Assembly (NCBI RefSeq): GCF_003721435.2
Contig: NZ_CP054585.1
Span: 806,001 to 870,000, forward strand
Reading direction: 5' to 3'
DNA length: 64,000 nt
DNA from: Halorubrum sp. CBA1229
GTDB taxonomy: Archaea; Halobacteriota; Halobacteria; Halobacteriales; Haloferacaceae
This document shows positions 5,416 to 64,000 of the stretch, in pieces (the stretch's first letter is position 1; every line of letters begins with the position of its first letter). The translations under genes and the position numbers were made by a program. Under the pieces are notes generated by a model, which saw nothing but the letters and a program-made list of their open reading frames with translations, was not told where the DNA came from and did not search any database.

Positions 5416-5528
5416 TCACTTACGTGGTTACCGAGCCCGTTCTAATGCTTTTCTATGTGCACGTTCGTGTGGTTCGATCCCGACGGCCGACGTTTGGGGT
5501 ACGCCATGATCGTTCATCGAACCGACCG

Positions 5529-5941
5529 GCGCGCGCCTCCGAGCGGCCGTTTTTAAACGGCCGCGAGGAGCGCGTGCGAGGGAGTCGCTGGCACCCTCCG
5601 CTTCGCGTCGGGTGCCAGCGACGAGGCTGGGGAGGCGTGAGGCTGCGGTCGCTGTGCGGGGCGGGGCTCAAAGGGGCAGCCGCGAGGACGGCGCAGGCGA
5701 CGCAAGCACCGCAACGAGGGAGCGAACGAAGTGAGCGACCGAGTGAGGAGCGCAGCGAGCGTGCGCCGTCCTCGCGGCTGGGGCTTTGGCGGTGGTCGCC
5801 GACGATCCGTCAGCAACGACGTACAGCCGATCGGCTGGGGCTTTGGAGAGGTTCACCGACGACCCGGTCTCACACGTTTATAAACGAGCGCCCGAGACTT
5901 CGGTGAGGATCACCGTCGCTCCGACGGCATCCATTTATAAA
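5529..5941 (+). repeat. dispersed structured element, copy A
   Basis: First of four related non-coding elements. In order: hairpin H1 (arms 5543-5552 and 5555-5564, 10 bp perfect); the common GCGAGGGA; hairpin H2 (5584-5596 with 5610-5622, 13 bp perfect); a nearly invariant block from 5623 to 5676 (starts GAGGCTGGGGAGGCGTGAGG); hairpin H3 (5677-5695 with 5762-5780, 19 bp perfect); and three tail units of about 57 bp beginning near 5775, 5832 and 5890, the last two ending in TTTATAAA. The tail ends exactly on the stop codon of the convergent gene at 5935. No open frame is conserved between copies, so it is non-coding; RNA gene or mobile element are the alternatives. Confidence 0.85.
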
Positions 5942-6312
5942 CCGACGACTGCCACACCGTAGATCACGACAGCGCCGACGACGGCGGCGGCAAGCGACTT
6001 CGCGTTCAGCCGGATCGCGCGCTTCCGGTCGGCGGCCAGCGCCGCCTCGTCGAGGACCTGGTTCGTCCCGTCGCCGACGTCGAAGACGCCGATGCCCGCG
6101 AAGCCGACGCAGAACCGCTCGCGGTACTGGAGGTAGCCCATCGCGGCGCCGTACAGGGGGAACACCGAGAGCAGCAGCGTCCAGCGCGGCCAGCCGACCG
6201 CGACGGCGGCGGCGACGAGGAGAGCCGCGAGGAGGAGGGAGGCGGTCCCGAGGAGGAGTCGCCGTCGCTGTTGGGCCGGTCCGATGTTGCACACGCCCGG
6301 TTGGTACTCCAT
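5935..6312 (-). CDS. small membrane protein with CNIGPAQ motif
   Basis: 125 residues from the ATG at 6312 (MEYQPGVCNIGPAQQRRR). An earlier in-frame start at 6366 exists, but the extra 18 residues are arginine-rich and unlike a conserved N-terminus. Three hydrophobic spans follow (about residues 18-38, 40-62 and 102-123), separated by a soluble loop with YRERFCVGFAGIGVFDVG. The N-terminal Cys and the CNIGPA-type motif recur in haloarchaeal membrane proteins of unknown role. The stop codon TAA is part of a TTTATAA shared with the end of repeat copy A, so the repeat tail and the gene end are fused. Confidence 0.8.
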   Translation of the reverse strand: MEYQPGVCNIGPAQQRRRLLLGTASLLLAALLVAAAVAVGWPRWTLLLSVFPLYGAAMGYLQYRERFCVGFAGIGVFDVGDGTNQVLDEAALAADRKRAIRLNAKSLAAAVVGAVVIYGVAVVGL

Positions 6313-21552: not shown

Positions 21553-23238
21553 TCAGTCGTCCGCCAGCGAGGCCGCGTCCGGCACCGATCCGTCCTCGGC
21601 GGCGGCCGAGAGCAGGCGGTCGAGCCCGTCGACCATCGCGACGACGCTGGCGCGGGTGATGTCCGCGTCCGTCGAGGAGACGGAGACCGACCGGTCGCCC
21701 CGCGAGAGGTCGACCTCGACGGTGACGACCGCGTCGGTGCCGCCCGTGATCGCGTCGACGTGGTAGGAGTTCAGATCGAAGGAGACGCCTTCTCCGCTCG
21801 AATCGCCCGCCAGCGCGGCCCGCACGGCCTCGAGGCCGGCGTCGACCGGGCCGGCGCCCGTACCGGAGGCGACGCGCTCCTCGTCGCCGACGCGGAGTCG
21901 CACCGACGCGGTGGGGAGGTTCCCGCCGGAGGTGGCCGACAGGTCGACGAGCTCGACGCGGCGGTCGCGCTCGCGGCCCTGCACGTCCTCGGTGATCGCG
22001 AGCAGGTCGGCGTCGGTGACGCGCTTCCCGCGGTCGCCGAGCTCCTTCACGCGGCTCACGACCGCGCTCAGCTCGTCGTCGTCGACCGCGACGTCGTGCT
22101 CGGCGAGCGCGGCCTTGACGCCGGCGCGGCCGGCGTGTTTCCCGAGGACGAGGCGCCGCTCGCGGCCCACCGTCTCGGGCGGGTACGGCTCGTACATCGT
22201 CCCGTCCTTGAGCGTGCCGTCGGTGTGGATGCCGGACTCGTGGGCGAAGGCGTTGGCGCCGCAGACCGCCTTGTTCGGCGGGAGCGCGACGCCCGTGGCT
22301 TCCGAGACGGTCCGACAGAGCCGGTAGAGCCGCTCTAGCTCGACCGTGTCGACGTCGTACGACCGGGCGAGCGCGACGGCGACCTCCTCTAAGGCGACGT
22401 TGCCGGCGCGCTCGCCGACGCCCATCACGGTGCCGTGGACGGTGTCGGCGCCCGCCTTCAGCCCGGCGTGGACGTTCGCCACGCCGAGGCCGAGGTCGTC
22501 GTGGGTGTGGAGGCTCGTCGGGCCGCGGTCGGCGAGCCGGGAGACGACCTCGGCGGTGCGCTCCGGGTCGGCCGCGCCGACCGTGTCGCAGTAGCAGATC
22601 CGGTCGGCGCCGGCGTCGAGGCCGGCGCCGAGCAGGCGGTCGAGGTAGTCGAGGTCGGCGCGGGAGCCGTCCTCGCCGAGCACCTCGACCCACAGGCCGT
22701 GGTCTTTCGCGTACTCGACGAGCTCGACCGTCGTGTCGACCACCTCGTCGCGGGTCGAGCCGACCTTCGTCTCGACGTGCTTGTCCGAGGCCGGGACGAC
22801 GAGGTTGATCCCGTCGACGCCGCAGTCGAGCGCGTGGTCGACGTCGGCCTTCACGCCGCGGGCGAAGCTCGTCACGGTCGCCGAGAGCCCCTCGCCCGCG
22901 ACCCGCCGGATGGCCTCGCGCTCGCCCTCCGAGGTGCACGCCGAGCCCGCCTCGATCAGGTGCATCCCCGCCGCGTCGAGCTCGCGGGCGACGTCGACCT
23001 TCTCGGCCGGCGTCAGCGAGACGCTGGGCATCTGCTCGCCGTCGCGCAGGGTGGTGTCTAACAGCTGTACCTCGTCGAGGTCGGTGAGTGGTGTTCGGGT
23101 CAAAAGGGAGTCCGTCCGCTTGTCGGTGGGTTCGGAGCCGGTGCCGCCGCGGGGCGGTCGTGCCCCGGAATCGTTATCGCCGGAGAATTTCGCGGCCAGC
23201 CGCCGCGAGGCGACTTCCTCTATCCTCCGAACGACCAC
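21553..23238 (-). CDS. cimA: (R)-citramalate synthase / 2-isopropylmalate synthase family
   Basis: 561 residues with a GTG start at 23238; a TTG about 45 codons in, just before TRTPLTDLDEVQLLDTTLRDGEQ, is a plausible alternative. The DRE-TIM barrel shows LLDTTLRDGEQMPSVSLTPAEK, LHTHDDLGLGVANVHAGL and GVGERAGNVALEEV. The C-terminal LeuA allosteric domain follows (NLPTASVRLRVGDEERVASGTGAGPVDAGLEAV). It condenses acetyl-CoA with pyruvate (citramalate, isoleucine route) or with 2-ketoisovalerate (leucine route); specificity cannot be fixed by eye, so the symbol is tentative. A TATA element near 23280-23287 is shared in the divergent gap to the cupin gene. Confidence 0.88.
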   Translation of the reverse strand: MVVRRIEEVASRRLAAKFSGDNDSGARPPRGGTGSEPTDKRTDSLLTRTPLTDLDEVQLLDTTLRDGEQMPSVSLTPAEKVDVARELDAAGMHLIEAGSACTSEGEREAIRRVAGEGLSATVTSFARGVKADVDHALDCGVDGINLVVPASDKHVETKVGSTRDEVVDTTVELVEYAKDHGLWVEVLGEDGSRADLDYLDRLLGAGLDAGADRICYCDTVGAADPERTAEVVSRLADRGPTSLHTHDDLGLGVANVHAGLKAGADTVHGTVMGVGERAGNVALEEVAVALARSYDVDTVELERLYRLCRTVSEATGVALPPNKAVCGANAFAHESGIHTDGTLKDGTMYEPYPPETVGRERRLVLGKHAGRAGVKAALAEHDVAVDDDELSAVVSRVKELGDRGKRVTDADLLAITEDVQGRERDRRVELVDLSATSGGNLPTASVRLRVGDEERVASGTGAGPVDAGLEAVRAALAGDSSGEGVSFDLNSYHVDAITGGTDAVVTVEVDLSRGDRSVSVSSTDADITRASVVAMVDGLDRLLSAAAEDGSVPDAASLADD

Positions 23239-24624: not shown

Positions 24625-24647
24625 GGATCGGTTGGACGCGGTTTGGT

Positions 24648-24654
24648 TTATAAA
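24648..24654 (-). promoter_or_regulatory. TATA box of the Cas4-like gene, supplied by repeat B tail
   Basis: TTTATAA on the minus strand, followed 30 nt later (box start to start codon) by the GTG of the Cas4-like gene. It is also the terminal motif of a 57-bp repeat tail unit. Confidence 0.55.
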
Positions 24655-24990
24655 GAGTTGACTGCGGATAAACAGTGAACACCGCCAAAGCCCCAGCCGC
24701 TCGCTTATAGGCAGCTGCTTACGGATCGTCGATGAAGACCTCCAAAGCCCCAGCCGCGAGGACTCGCGTGGCTCGCTGCGCGCTTCAGTCGCTCGCGATG
24801 CTCGCTCCTTCCAGTGCTTGCGTCGCCAAGCGTCGTCCTCGCGGCTGGGGCTTTGAGTCCCGCCCCGCACAGCAACCGCGCCTCACGCCTCCCCAGCCTC
24901 GGCGGACGGACCGGCACGGCTCCGCCCGCGCCGGCCCGCCGCCTCCCTCGCGGGCGGGTCGCGCCCGCTGGGCGCGACCCGGCGCGCCCC
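24648..24990 (-). repeat. dispersed structured element, copy B
   Basis: Minus-strand copy of the element in copy A. Read on the element strand: H1 (24980-24970 with 24966-24956, 11 bp perfect), H2 (24943-24930 with 24915-24901, one bulge and one G-U pair), invariant block (24900-24856), H3 (24855-24835 with 24763-24743, 21 bp perfect, 71-nt loop) and two 57-bp tail units, the first ending in TATAAG near 24706 and the second in TTTATAA at 24654-24648. The mismatch in H2 becomes a G-U wobble only on the element strand, consistent with RNA made from that strand. Confidence 0.85.
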
Positions 24991-25079
24991 TTCATCGTTG
25001 GGGCTCGTGAGCGTGCGGTGGTGGTCAAGCGAGAGCGGGGAGACGGCAGGCCGTGAAGGCGGTTACAACGAGCGACTAT

Positions 25080-46427: not shown

Positions 46428-46876
46428 GGTGCGCACCTGCGAGCGCCCACCGGGCGCGAGCAGCCTGCGCGAGGGAGTCGGTCGTCCGGAGCAGCGCGGA
46501 GGACGACCGACGAGGCTGGGGAGGTATGAGGTGCGGTCCCGCGAGCAACGCGAGCGGGAGCACGGAAGTCGCAGCCCGCGCAGCGAACGCAGTGAGCGAG
46601 CAGGAACGTCTTCCGGCGGTGGCTGTCCGGGGCGGGACTCGAAGGGGCAGTCGCGAGGACTGCGCAGGCGACGCAAGCACTGGAGGGAGCGAGCGGCGCG
46701 AGCGACCGAAGCGCGCAGCGAGCGTGCGCAGTCCTCGCGACTGGGGCTTCGGAGGCGTTCGCCGTCGATCCAGTATCACTCATTTATAAGCAAGCGACTG
46801 GGGCTTCGGAGGCGTTCGCCGTCGATCCAGTATCACTCATTTATAAGTAAGCGACTGGGGCTTCTGAAGCGCTTCC
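46428..46876 (+). repeat. dispersed structured element, copy C
   Basis: H1 (46443-46448 with 46452-46457, plus outer pairs GCGCA/TGCGC), H2 (46477-46487 with 46501-46511, 11 bp perfect, different sequence from copy A), invariant block interrupted by an ~85-nt insertion with its own hairpin (CCCGC/GCGGG near 46540 and CGGAAG/CTTCCG), then H3 (46648-46666 with 46725-46743, 19 bp perfect). H3 differs from copy A at two base pairs and both partners change together. Two tail units of exactly 57 bp (46738-46794, 46795-46851) differ by one base, each ending TTTATAAG; a third is cut short. Confidence 0.85.
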
Positions 46877-59170: not shown

Positions 59171-62100
59171 ATGCATATCACTGAAGTCGTTTTGGACGGG
59201 TTCAAGAGCTTCGGACGAACGACGAGGATCCCCTTTTACGACGACTTCACGGTCGTCACGGGGCCGAACGGCTCCGGGAAGTCGAACATCATCGACGGGG
59301 TCCTCTTCGCGCTCGGCCTGGCGCGCACCCGCGGGATCAGGGCGAAGAAGCTCACCGACCTGATCTACAACCCCGGCCACGACGGCGGGGAGAGCTCCGG
59401 CGGTCCGAACGAGGCCTCGGTGACGGTCGTCCTCTCGAACGAGGACGGCACCCTCGACCGGTCGCAGGTCGTCTCCGCGGCGGGCACGGAGAACGTCGGC
59501 GACGTCTCCGAGATCACGATCAAGCGCCGCGTGAAGGAGACCGAGGACAACTACTACTCCTACTACTACCTCAACGGGCGCTCGGTGAACCTCTCGGACG
59601 TGCAGGACCTGCTCGCGGCCGCCGGCGTGACGCCGGAGGGGTACAACGTCGTGATGCAGGGCGACGTCACCGAGATCATCAACATGACCCCCTACCAGCG
59701 GCGGGGGATCATCGACGAGATCGCGGGCGTCGCCGAGTTCGACGAGAAGAAGGAGGCCGCCTTCGAGGAGCTGGACACGGTCGAAGACCGGATCGGCGAG
59801 GCGGACCTCCGGATCGGCGAGAAGCAGGACCGGCTCGACCAGCTGGCAGACGAGCGCGAGACCGCGCTCCAGTATCAGGAGTACCGCGACGAACTCGAGG
59901 AGTACCGCGGCTTCCTCAAGGCCTCCGAGCTGGAGGAGAAGCGCGAGGCGCTCGCCGGCGTCGAGGGCGACATCGACGACGCGGAGGCCGAGCTGGAGGA
60001 GCTCCGCGAGGAGCTCGACGCGAGACAGGGGAAGCTCACCCGCCTAGAGGAGGACCTAGCCGACCTCAACCACGAGATCGAGACGAAAGGCGAGGACGAG
60101 CAGATACAGATCCGCTCGGAGATCGAGGAGGTGAAAGGCGAGATCTCGCGGCTGGAGGACAAGATCGAGGCGGCCGAGGAGCGCGCCGCGGAGGCGGAGA
60201 CGGAGCGGCGCGACGCGTTCGTCCAGATCGACCGGAAGGAGGAGACGATCGAGGAGCTCGACGAGGAGATCCGCGAGGCGAAAGTCGAGAAGGCCTCCGT
60301 CAAGTCCGAGATCGCGACGAAGCGGTCCGAGCTGGCGGACGTCGAGGCCGAGATCGAGGGCGCCGACACCGAGTTCGACGAGCTGAAAGACGAGCTCGCC
60401 GAGAAGAAGGAGGCGATCGAGTCGCTGCGCGAGGAGAAGAACGAGAAGCAGCGCGAGAAGGACCGCCTGCTCGACGAGGCGCGCCGGCGCTCGAACGCCG
60501 TGAGCGAGGCGCGGACCGAGCTGGAGGAGGCCCGCGAGTCGCTGCCGGAGCACAAGGCGCGGATCTCCGAGCTCCGCAGCGAACTCGACAAGGCCGAGAA
60601 GAACGAAGAGAAGATCGAGGACGTCGTCGCGGACCTCTTCTCGGAGAAGGCCGAGCGGAGCGAGGAGCTCGAGGCGGTCGAGGAGGAGCTCCGCGAGAGG
60701 CAGAACGAGTACGCGAAGCTGGAGGCCGCCGCCGACCAGCGCGGCGACACCTCGTGGCCGCGGGCGGTGACCGAGGTGAAGAACGGTGGCATCGACGGCG
60801 TCCACGGCGCCGTCGGCGAGCTCGGCTCGGTCGCGGCCGAGTACGCGGAGGCGTGCGAGACGGCCGCCGGCGGCCGGCTCGCGAACGTCGTCGTCGACGA
60901 CGACGGCGTCGGTTCGACGTGTATCGACTACCTGAAGCGCCGGAACGCGGGCCGGGCGACGTTCCTCCCCATCACGGAGATGGACGACCGGAGCCTCCCG
61001 CGGAAGCCCTCGCTGCCCGGCGTCGTCGACTTCGCGCGCAACCTCGTCGACTACGACGCCGAGTACGCCTCGGTGTTCTCGTACGTGCTCGGCTCGACGC
61101 TCGTCGTCGAGGACATGGACACCGCCCGCGAGCTGATGGGCGATTACCGGATGGTCACCCTCGACGGCGACCTCGTCGAGAAGTCCGGCGCGATGACGGG
61201 CGGGTCCGGCGGCGGCTCGCGGTACGCGTTCACCAAGTCCGGCGGCGGGAAGCTGGAGCGGCTCGCGACCGAGATCTCGGAGCTGGAGGACGAGCGGCAG
61301 TCGCTGGAGTCGGAGGTCGACGAGCTGGAGGCGGACATCGACGACGCGCGCGACCGCAAGGCCGACGCCGCGGAGCGCGTCCGGTCGCTGGAGGCCGACG
61401 TCGAGCGCGCCGAGGAGGACCTCGCGGACGCCGAGGACCGGATCGACGAGTTAGAGACCGAGCTCGAGGAGCTGGAGGCGGAACGCGAGTCGGTCGACGA
61501 GGAGATGAGCGAGCTGGACGCGGAGCTCGACGATCTCGATGCGGAGATCGCGGAGCTGGAGGGCGAGATCGAGGAGATCGAGGCGGAGCTCGCCGACTCG
61601 AAGATCCCGGAGCTCTCCGAGCGCGCCGACGAGATCCGCGGCGAGATATCGGACTTAGAGGACCGGATGGACTCGCTCGACGGGCGGCAGAGCGAGCTGG
61701 AGCTGGAGAAGGGGTACGCCGAGGACGCGGTCGACGACCTCCACGACACCGTTGAGACGGCGCAGAACCGGAAGGCGGAGGCCGAGGAGGCGGTCGCCGA
61801 GCACGAGGCCGCGATCGAGGAGAAGGAGGCCGAGCTCGAGGAGAAGAAGGCGGCGATCGCCGACTTAGAGGAGGAGCTCACGGAGCTGAAGGCCGACCGC
61901 GAGGACCTCCGGGAGGAGATCAAGGCGGCGACCCGCGAGCGCGACGAGCAGCGCTCGCTCGTCGCCGAGGCCGAGTCCGACCTGGAGGACCTGACGGACC
62001 GCCGCGACCGGCTGGAGTGGGAAATCGACGAGCTGGAGTCGCAGGTGGGCGAGTACGACGCCGAGGAGATCCCGGACCTCGACGAGGTCGAGTCCCGGAT

Positions 62101-62761
62101 CGAGGAGCTGGAGGCCGAGATGGAGGCGTTAGAGCCAGTCAATATGCTCGCGATCGACGAGTACGACGAGGTGCAGGAGGCGCTCGACCAGCTCCAAGAG
62201 CGCCGGGACGTACTCGTCGAGGAGCGGGACGCGATCGAGGAGCGCATCGAGGGGTACGAGGCGGCGAAGAAGGAGACGTTCATGGCGACGTTCGAGTCGA
62301 TCAACGACCACTTCGAGGACATCTTCGCGCGCCTCTCGGCCGGCAGCGGCGAGCTCCTCTTGGAGAACCCGGAGGACCCCTTCGAGGAGGGGCTGACGAT
62401 GAAGGCGCAGCCCGCGGACAAGCCGGTCCAGCGGCTCGAGGCGATGAGCGGCGGTGAGAAGTCGCTGACCGCTCTCTCCTTCATCTTCGCTATCCAGCGG
62501 CACAACCCCGCGCCGTTCTACGCGCTCGACGAGATCGACGCGTTCCTCGACGCGGTCAACGCCGAGCGCGTCGGCGAGATGATCGAGGAGCTGGCCGCGG
62601 ACGCGCAGTTCGTGGTGGTCGGCCACCGCTCCGCGCTGCTGGAGCGCTCCGACCGCGCCATCGGCGTCACGATGCAGGGCGACAACCTCTCGGCGGTCAC
62701 CGGGATGCAGTTCGGCGACGAGGGTGGCGACGGCGACGGAGAGGTGAGCGCGGATGACTGA
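59171..62761 (+). CDS. smc: chromosome segregation protein SMC
   Basis: 1196 residues. N-terminal Walker A VTGPNGSGKSNIIDGVLFALGL; a long first coiled coil; the hinge (about residues 505-665: GIDGVHGAVGELGSVAAEY...RATFLPITEMDDRS...MTGGSGGGSRYAF); a second long coiled coil; C-terminal signature LEAMSGGEKSLTALSFIFAIQ, Walker B PFYALDEIDAFLD and D-loop/H-loop (VVVGHRSALLERSDR). Two SMC chains with ScpA form the loop-extruding ring that organises chromosomes. Its last codons overlap scpA by 8 nt. Confidence 0.97.
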   Translation: MHITEVVLDGFKSFGRTTRIPFYDDFTVVTGPNGSGKSNIIDGVLFALGLARTRGIRAKKLTDLIYNPGHDGGESSGGPNEASVTVVLSNEDGTLDRSQVVSAAGTENVGDVSEITIKRRVKETEDNYYSYYYLNGRSVNLSDVQDLLAAAGVTPEGYNVVMQGDVTEIINMTPYQRRGIIDEIAGVAEFDEKKEAAFEELDTVEDRIGEADLRIGEKQDRLDQLADERETALQYQEYRDELEEYRGFLKASELEEKREALAGVEGDIDDAEAELEELREELDARQGKLTRLEEDLADLNHEIETKGEDEQIQIRSEIEEVKGEISRLEDKIEAAEERAAEAETERRDAFVQIDRKEETIEELDEEIREAKVEKASVKSEIATKRSELADVEAEIEGADTEFDELKDELAEKKEAIESLREEKNEKQREKDRLLDEARRRSNAVSEARTELEEARESLPEHKARISELRSELDKAEKNEEKIEDVVADLFSEKAERSEELEAVEEELRERQNEYAKLEAAADQRGDTSWPRAVTEVKNGGIDGVHGAVGELGSVAAEYAEACETAAGGRLANVVVDDDGVGSTCIDYLKRRNAGRATFLPITEMDDRSLPRKPSLPGVVDFARNLVDYDAEYASVFSYVLGSTLVVEDMDTARELMGDYRMVTLDGDLVEKSGAMTGGSGGGSRYAFTKSGGGKLERLATEISELEDERQSLESEVDELEADIDDARDRKADAAERVRSLEADVERAEEDLADAEDRIDELETELEELEAERESVDEEMSELDAELDDLDAEIAELEGEIEEIEAELADSKIPELSERADEIRGEISDLEDRMDSLDGRQSELELEKGYAEDAVDDLHDTVETAQNRKAEAEEAVAEHEAAIEEKEAELEEKKAAIADLEEELTELKADREDLREEIKAATRERDEQRSLVAEAESDLEDLTDRRDRLEWEIDELESQVGEYDAEEIPDLDEVESRIEELEAEMEALEPVNMLAIDEYDEVQEALDQLQERRDVLVEERDAIEERIEGYEAAKKETFMATFESINDHFEDIFARLSAGSGELLLENPEDPFEEGLTMKAQPADKPVQRLEAMSGGEKSLTALSFIFAIQRHNPAPFYALDEIDAFLDAVNAERVGEMIEELAADAQFVVVGHRSALLERSDRAIGVTMQGDNLSAVTGMQFGDEGGDGDGEVSADD

Positions 62762-63737
62762 GCCGCCGGAGTCGGTGGGCGCGCACGGGAGCGGACCGGG
62801 CGACGAGTCGGCGGCCGCGGGCGACGCCGACGGCGTCCCGAGCCTCGACCTGACGAGCGAGCGCGACGGGGGACCGTCGGGGGAGCCGGAGGCGGAGGCC
62901 CCGGGCGACGTCGACGGCGCCGGGGGAGACGGGGCCGAGGAGGACGGCGAGGTCGAGCCCGTCGAGCTCCTCGTCCAGCTCGCCGAGGAGGGCGAGATCG
63001 AGCCGTGGGACATCGACATCGTGCAGGTGACGGACGCCTTCTTGGAGCGGCTCGACGAGACGGACCTCCGGACGACTGGGCGGGCGCTGTTCTACGCCAG
63101 CGTCCTGTTGCGGATGAAAAGCGACGGGATGTTGGCCGACGACGATGACGACGAGGAGCCCGAGCCCGAGCCGTGGGAGGTCGCGATGGAGGGCGGCGCG
63201 CCGGACCCCGCCGACGGTGACTTCGACCCGGTCGACGAGCTGGAGGCGGAGATGGACCGTCGGCTCGACCGGAAGAGCACCCGGGGCTCGCCGGAGACGC
63301 TCGACGAGCTGGTCCGCGAGCTCCGGGAGGCCGAGCGCGGCTCGTGGTGGAAAGAGTCCCGCGAGTACGACACCTCGGAGTCGCCGCACGGGTACGACCG
63401 CGGCACGCAGACGCTCGACTACCACACCGGCGACGAGTTCCGGCGGGACGGCGAGCCGACCGCCGGCGAGGCGACCGACCGCACCCACGACGAGGACATC
63501 GAGGAGGTGATAGTGGAGATCGACAACGCCCTCCGGACCCACTTCGACCGCGGGCGTACGGAGGTGCTCTTCGCGGAGATCGAGGGCGCGGGCGGGCGCC
63601 CGTTCATGACGTACCTCGCGCTGCTGTTCATGGCCCACCGCGGCTCGGTGCGCCTCCAGCAGGACGACCTGTTCGGCGATCTGTGGGTGAAAGACCCCAC
63701 GGCGATGACCGGTGAGTCGGAAGCGATAGCGGATTAG
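62754..63737 (+). CDS. scpA: segregation and condensation protein ScpA
   Basis: 327 residues, overlapping smc by 8 nt. The N-terminal ~60 residues are low-complexity acidic/Gly. The kleisin core begins PVELLVQLAEEGEIEPWDIDIVQVTDAFLERLDETDLRTTGRALFYASVLLRMKSDGMLADD, then DKK-like charged linkers and a C-terminal winged-helix (TEVLFAEIEGAGGRPFMTYLALLFMAHRGSVRLQQDDLFGDLWVK). It bridges the SMC heads. ScpB is not adjacent, as in other archaea. Ends at 63737, just upstream of repeat copy D. Confidence 0.95.
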   Translation: MTEPPESVGAHGSGPGDESAAAGDADGVPSLDLTSERDGGPSGEPEAEAPGDVDGAGGDGAEEDGEVEPVELLVQLAEEGEIEPWDIDIVQVTDAFLERLDETDLRTTGRALFYASVLLRMKSDGMLADDDDDEEPEPEPWEVAMEGGAPDPADGDFDPVDELEAEMDRRLDRKSTRGSPETLDELVRELREAERGSWWKESREYDTSESPHGYDRGTQTLDYHTGDEFRRDGEPTAGEATDRTHDEDIEEVIVEIDNALRTHFDRGRTEVLFAEIEGAGGRPFMTYLALLFMAHRGSVRLQQDDLFGDLWVKDPTAMTGESEAIAD

Positions 63738-63857: not shown

Positions 63858-64000
63858 GGCGCGTGCCTCCGAGCGGTCGCCCTCGGCGACCGCGAGGAGC
63901 GCGCGCGAGGGACGCGGCGAACGCGAGCGGCGAAGCCGCGAGCCGTGAGCCGCGAGGCTGGGGAGGCGTGAGGTGCGGTCGCTGTGCGGTTGGGTGGGAC
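63858..64000 (+). repeat. dispersed structured element, copy D (continues beyond the window)
   Basis: Starts with H1 (GCGGTCGCC at 63873-63881 with GGCGACCGC at 63885-63893, 9 bp perfect), the common GCGAGGGA, H2 as a nested pair (CGCGGC 63913-63918 with GCCGCG 63949-63954 and GCGGC 63927-63931 with GCCGC 63935-63939), then the invariant block (GAGGCTGGGGAGGCGTGAGG from 63955) to the window end. H3 and the tail lie outside. Arm sequences differ from the other copies. Confidence 0.8.

Follow-up and report, generated by a model that had tools for sequence, protein, structure and literature searches.

Integron attC sites are recognised through the shape of a folded single strand, their sequence being variable. 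Among the haloarchaea, Haloquadratum walsbyi carries PATEs and SMRs, dispersed palindrome-rich repeats in which smaller repeats are inserted into the palindromes (available part of PMC3119063). At the level of single hairpins, template switching has a published footprint, homogenisation of the two arms combined with inversion of the spacer (PMC8604942; PMC8794818, both as available in part), and the accessible text of PMC8794818 reports loop inversions and proposes template switching as a source of compensatory changes.

Here we analysed a window of 64,000 nt from Halorubrum sp. CBA1229, in which an intergenic element of about 350 nt occurs as copies A to D. What is new is that the sites and the core of this element are conserved between species and the sequence of one of its hairpins, H2, is not.

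Architecture and distribution of the element

In copy A the element consists, in order, of hairpin H1, a GAGGGA joint, H2, a core, a variable linker, the long hairpin H3 and a series of tail units (Table 1). The 57-nt tail unit (GCGACTGGGGCTT to TTTATAAGCAA) is present as one to several tandem repeats 3' of H3 in copy C and in others, with an AT-rich, TATA-like end similar to the sequence that flanks H1 upstream; the motif TTTATAA recurs close to both ends of the element. The tail as promoter of the downstream gene was rejected as a general rule.

Table 1. Features of the element in copies A to D (positions refer to the window)
Feature	Position	Strand	Description
Copy A H1	5528..5577	+	Outer and inner stems separated by a tandem GA internal loop; model R1 match G000:C1:811528-811648; covariation
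Copy A H2	5584..5622	+	Stem of 13 bp; apical loop inverted with respect to its class
Copy A core	5623..5642	+	GAGGCTGGGGAGGCGTGAGG; 92 own copies gathered on GAGGYTGGGGAGG; alignment columns invariant or near-invariant
Copy A H3	5677..5780	+	Ladder of tandem GA loops; flanked by CAAAGGGG and GGGGCTTTG
Copy A tail units	5774..5890	+	Start with GCGGCTGGGGCTTTGG; 57-nt period in other copies
Copy B, entire element	24646..25010	-	Ends approximate
Copy B H2	24901..24943	-	Two isolated G-U pairs
Copy C H2	46477..46511	+	Model R1 match G000:C1:852428-852537
Copy C tail	46737..46871	+	2.4 tandem copies of the 57-nt unit, 3' end TTTATAAGCAA
Copy D nested H2	63913..63953	+	GA tandem loops; model R1 match G000:C1:869858-869979; element extends beyond the window end

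Some copies (L030, L045, L071, L097, L111 and others) contain extra two-hairpin inserts of about 50 nt, located between H1 and H2 or inside H2 or H3, which may be small mobile units in their own right, comparable to the SMRs of Haloquadratum. At locus L407, on a plasmid of Halorussus caseinilyticus (1434-1532 and downstream), a second, inverted copy seemingly lies in the same intergenic gap.

A covariance model built on H1, H2 and the core identified at least 103 matches on chromosome C1, a lower bound given that 150 of 12,935 first-look candidates were scored, and none on contig C2 (0.36 Mb), where the chance of finding none is 1.6e-5. All 85 exact matches of the core pattern in the genome likewise fall on C1. 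Gathering on the core yielded 92 distinct own-genome copies, every one of them between genes predicted by a caller trained on third-position GC. The flanking genes are convergent in 31 cases, both on the minus strand in 26, both on the plus strand in 19 and divergent in 15; the excess of convergent over divergent gaps (31 vs 15, p = 0.026) is one of small numbers. Copies are irregularly spaced along the chromosome (CV 1.14 vs 0.99 for random), and a regular arrangement was rejected.

Beyond this genome, a broader model (E <= 0.001, 20 candidates scored per genome) detected the element in 83 of 194 haloarchaeal genomes and 28 of 65 genera. All 22 sampled Halorubrum genomes gave matches; those in the 61 genomes outside the genus were weaker, many being a single weak match, and one genome of another genus held 72 matches at E 0.01. 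Three weak matches were found among 72,556 plasmid records and none among 50,697 phage records.

No Rfam 15 family reached its gathering score on the element; in the window only leuA-Halobacteria and tRNA did so, both elsewhere, and the interval 5450-5950 gave one sub-threshold match (E 0.72). The leuA-Halobacteria RNA (RF03001), a known cis-regulatory motif, lies at 23182-23234 on the minus strand (E 1e-12). Directly upstream of copy D, at 59171-63737 on the plus strand, lie a long gene with coiled-coil-like repeats and, after it, one for a ScpA-family protein (PF02616), a neighbour by which the repeat-containing gene may be judged SMC-like. Among titles and the opening of abstracts in the open-access literature, the scope of our search, no description of the element was found, and the available parts of PMC10927574 and PMC2841640 contain nothing on it.

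Base pairing is maintained across copies

Alignment of H1 and H2 from the 23 copies with a 35-nt H2 revealed standard pairs in 98.5% of 688 cells, compared with 86.5% in shuffled controls and 25-52% when the partner was slid, and both sides had changed in 19 of the 31 pairs. A 49-copy alignment, with 31 copies from other genera (30 from three genera, one from the Halorussus plasmid), showed 93.1% of 1200 cells paired, with changes on both sides in 29 of the 31 pairs; these figures are biased toward pairing, as the model was used to fit this alignment. Covariation thus exceeds the controls, as expected of a structured non-coding RNA.

These results bear out the claim of an earlier note on this DNA that H2 pairing is kept across copies despite sequence change, and the H2 arms that it quoted are exact in all four copies (A, C and D on the plus strand, B on the minus strand). 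For copy B it had described one G-U pair; the arms themselves are right, and extension of the stem brings the number of isolated G-U pairs to two. Its description of H2 as unrelated sequence in each copy is accurate for A to D and overstated genome-wide: the H2s of the 88 parsed own-genome copies comprise 69 distinct sequences, some recurring up to five times, that group into about a dozen classes.

The element strand is the one that folds

On the element strand, isolated G-U pairs outnumber A-C mismatches by 80 to 22 (H1 22:4, H2 12:2, H3 46:16), counted over unique arm sets, with mismatches flanked by Watson-Crick pairs and under symmetric scoring that favours neither kind. The H3 count covers only the outer 17 pairs, a limit chosen after a first run over the whole hairpin had given 47 G-U and 54 A-C because the alignment ran into internal loops; in one count a single H3 position accounts for 24 of 41 G-U, and the H3 excess without it is only 17:10. 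Binomial p values for these wobbles are to be read in light of the relatedness of the copies, by which the events are not independent. The unique 2x2 internal loops from 292 distinct copies include 148 of the GA/GA type and 4 of the TC/TC type. Isolated wobbles are scarce in H2 (12 G-U among 1271 counted pairs), tetraloop counts by strand are too few (GNRA 8:2, UNCG 1:1), and minimum-energy z-scores of -5.4 and -5.1 do not separate the strands.

The element strand of each copy is selected to fold single-stranded into H1, H2, core and H3. Folded single-stranded DNA also tolerates G-T wobbles and GA tandems, so the asymmetry tells which strand folds and not whether the folded molecule is RNA. 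The earlier note had reasoned from G-U pairs on the element strand only to RNA rather than DNA selection; the direction it assigned, which one G-U in one copy would have been too little to carry, stands (80:22; GA/GA 148:4), and the step to RNA does not, since single-stranded DNA fits too. The likeliest form of the folded molecule is an RNA, which would be made from the element strand.

Of 54 own copies, 39 have a TATA-like box at -32 to -10 relative to the head, compared with 4 of 54 and 1 of 54 in two control windows. Boxes of this type also lie upstream of H1 in 16 of 28 cases in the relative genome G004 and at 24 of 54 other Halorubrum loci; among 14 located heads from other genera there were none, and copy A has no box at the usual place. 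As candidate promoters of an element-strand transcript, these boxes are suggestive but incomplete evidence.

Sites are kept while hairpin sequences are not

At locus A, whose gene neighbour is purL-like (AIR synthase domains), 20 of the 30 species loci have the core in the same place and orientation, with an H1 and an H2 peculiar to each; at locus C, 23 of 30 likewise keep the core in place and orientation (own locus counted in both). Locus B, with a core in 17 of 30 species loci, was left out as shared-site evidence because the place and strand of the element relative to the gene differ in some distant species. Empty sites or remnants were found at L285, L305, L317 and L319, with only head repeats at L270 and only tail units at L302. 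Insertion exactly at stop codons, hinted at by locus A, proved not to be general.

From G004, 60 of 74 matches were taken and 56 copies recognised, 44 of which share flanks with an own-genome copy. Over 37 of these 44 orthologous pairs (seven were dropped, one copy lacking the CGAGGGA anchor or having another layout), H1 had a median identity of 72%, H2 of 58% and the 25-nt core of 92%. For H2, random pairs of non-orthologous copies also give 58%, indicating that no trace of H2 ancestry is left at these conserved sites. Individual pairs vary: four of the 37 H2s are at least 85% identical, including one fully, and 28 are below 70%.

In the flanks shared with G004, identity is 93.1% over coding DNA and 82.0% at four-fold sites. 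The mean identity profile of 40 such pairs runs at 91-95% upstream, drops from about -200 to 56% in H2, reaches 89% at the core and recovers past the tail, so that the dip is confined to the intergenic element region; interior identity outside the core at orthologous sites is 55-71%. Low interior identity is partly common to ordinary intergenic DNA, and near-perfect pairing throughout is what stands out.

Loop inversion and the footprint of template switching

In the orthologous pair L008/L432, the TATA box, H1, both H2 arms and the core are identical and the H2 loop is an exact inversion. Comparison of 246 distinct H2s revealed seven exact and seven near flip pairs. Most exact flips have loops of 3-4 nt, where chance matches are possible; the long-loop flips (copy A, L128, L229) are hard to obtain by chance. 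Copy A is a flipped member of the L004/L048 class: its apical loop is the reverse complement of the loop common to the class, and the 5' arm of copy A is exactly complementary to the class 3' arm, where the class itself has a G-U or mismatch. Copies with that loop are in forward orientation in 126 cases and flipped in 3, a ratio consistent with selection against flips, which swap GA/GA for TC/TC.

Spacer inversion with the arms kept, the mark of template switching, is thus observed in L008/L432 and in copy A, L128 and L229. Loop inversions and arm homogenisation, copy A included, are positive evidence that a DNA-level process also acts. Within the genome, the class of a copy's H1 shows no link to that of its H2 (MI p = 0.83), indicating that the hairpins change independently; from this and the recurring types we infer that modules may be exchanged between copies.

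Possible origins and role of the element

We lean, if only slightly, towards selection on an RNA-like shape in a dispersed non-coding haloarchaeal family whose stems are renewed by template switching and module exchange. An RNA would be made from the element strand, often starting at the TATA box about 20 nt upstream of H1, and selection would maintain its fold, its tandem-GA geometry and its single-stranded core. Polymerase template switching within a hairpin, whose footprint is seen here, would renew the stems by inverting the loop and making one arm the exact complement of the other, and hairpin modules would be passed among the many copies. With these two layers, selection on the fold and DNA-level renewal of stems, pairing survives though sequence does not. 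In the cell the RNA would probably be a scaffold bound by protein through its shape and core, our preferred guess for its role, with a mobile ssDNA-hairpin element as the main rival.

That rival holds that the copies are semi-fossil members of a non-autonomous mobile DNA element, their ssDNA hairpins being the substrate of a transposase acting in trans, as for the IS605-related PATEs, and the strand asymmetry a product of ssDNA folding. High copy number, strictly intergenic placement, the convergent excess, empty or remnant sites in some species and extra nested hairpins in some copies agree with it, as does the presence of PATEs and SMRs in another haloarchaeon, Haloquadratum (PMC3119063, available part). 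Its sites, however, are persistent (A 20/30 and C 23/30 species loci; 44/56 copies common with G004), its interiors lack the homogeneity of an element that spread recently, and the lack of any of the 103 matches on C2 and the scarcity in plasmids count against mobility, leaving this a possible but rather unlikely reading. Even less probable is a double-stranded or cruciform DNA landmark for chromosome folding or protein docking, with pairing kept only by template switching that perfects palindromes. The few isolated H2 wobbles and the clear template-switch footprints would suit such a landmark, but under its symmetric role G-U should be as frequent as A-C, and GA/GA as TC/TC; both ratios are strongly skewed, and the irregular spacing also argues against it; we consider it very unlikely.

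Some copies lie just downstream and others just upstream of a gene, as a cis-acting leader, riboswitch or terminator of the adjacent gene might; the occurrence of all four flanking orientations (31/26/19/15) and the unrelated genes adjoining copies A, B and C render this role highly improbable. Neutral drift, with GC-rich intergenic DNA folding by chance, would explain the divergence, as GC-rich sequence folds easily and intergenic DNA diverges fast, but it is contradicted by 98.5% pairing against 25-52% for slid partners, by a core 92% identical and by the 49-copy covariation, and we give it next to no weight.

Returning to selection on an RNA-like shape, an extended form of it appears unlikely, though less so than the landmark: about a hundred loci would encode RNAs defined by shape only, their sequence actively diversified, with fold and core held at fixed sites while template switching and module exchange scramble the stems so fast that ancestry between close species is undetectable. 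Such scrambling would perhaps be favoured because identical copies would recombine or cross-pair.

The family offers a natural test case for the evolution of paired RNA stems, in which shape is kept and hairpin sequences are almost wholly exchanged between related species. It bears on the open question whether compensatory changes in stems arise stepwise via G-U or all at once, copied from another template. Each genome provides about 100 loci, and 52 genomes of the genus are searchable; with conserved anchors flanking the hairpins and neutral benchmarks in the flanks, the rates of arm templating, loop inversion and module exchange are directly measurable. The family also adds a structured element that has no Rfam family and fills many intergenic gaps in haloarchaea, and it cautions that covariation alone is no proof of slow, stepwise compensation.

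Comparison with known systems

In attC sites and in the element alike, a folded single strand keeps its shape and varies in sequence; unlike attC sites, the element forms no cassette array, occurring as single copies between chromosomal genes in both orientations. Template-switched hairpins share with it arm homogenisation and loop inversion by which stems stay perfect (PMC8794818, PMC8604942), but the cases in the available parts of these articles come from rRNA, microRNA and coding DNA, whereas the element occurs at about 100 loci in each genome, across dozens of species. MITEs are defined by terminal inverted repeats and target-site duplication. Empty sites of the element exist, at a boundary resolution too coarse for a duplication to be seen.

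With PATEs and SMRs the element shares its dispersed, transposase-free, palindrome-rich and haloarchaeal character (PMC3119063, available part). PATEs, compared by description from the same source, carry palindromes close to their termini that are related to the ends of IS605-type transposons, and they are linked to a target oligonucleotide, whereas this family is defined by fold and core, its sites persist across the genus, and its hairpin sequences turn over at fixed sites. Its interior identity departs from the full-length homogeneity of homogeneous PATEs; heterogeneous PATEs may still fit. The BOX elements of Streptococcus pneumoniae are similarly modular and RNA-foldable, with many intergenic copies, a repeated internal module and a convergent excess, but their modules are described, in the available part of PMC3049150, as sequence families, in contrast to hypervariable covarying stems at orthologous sites. 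We class the element as a dispersed structured repeat, unusual for its hypervariable stems at conserved sites, whose nearest described counterparts are PATEs/SMRs and BOX.
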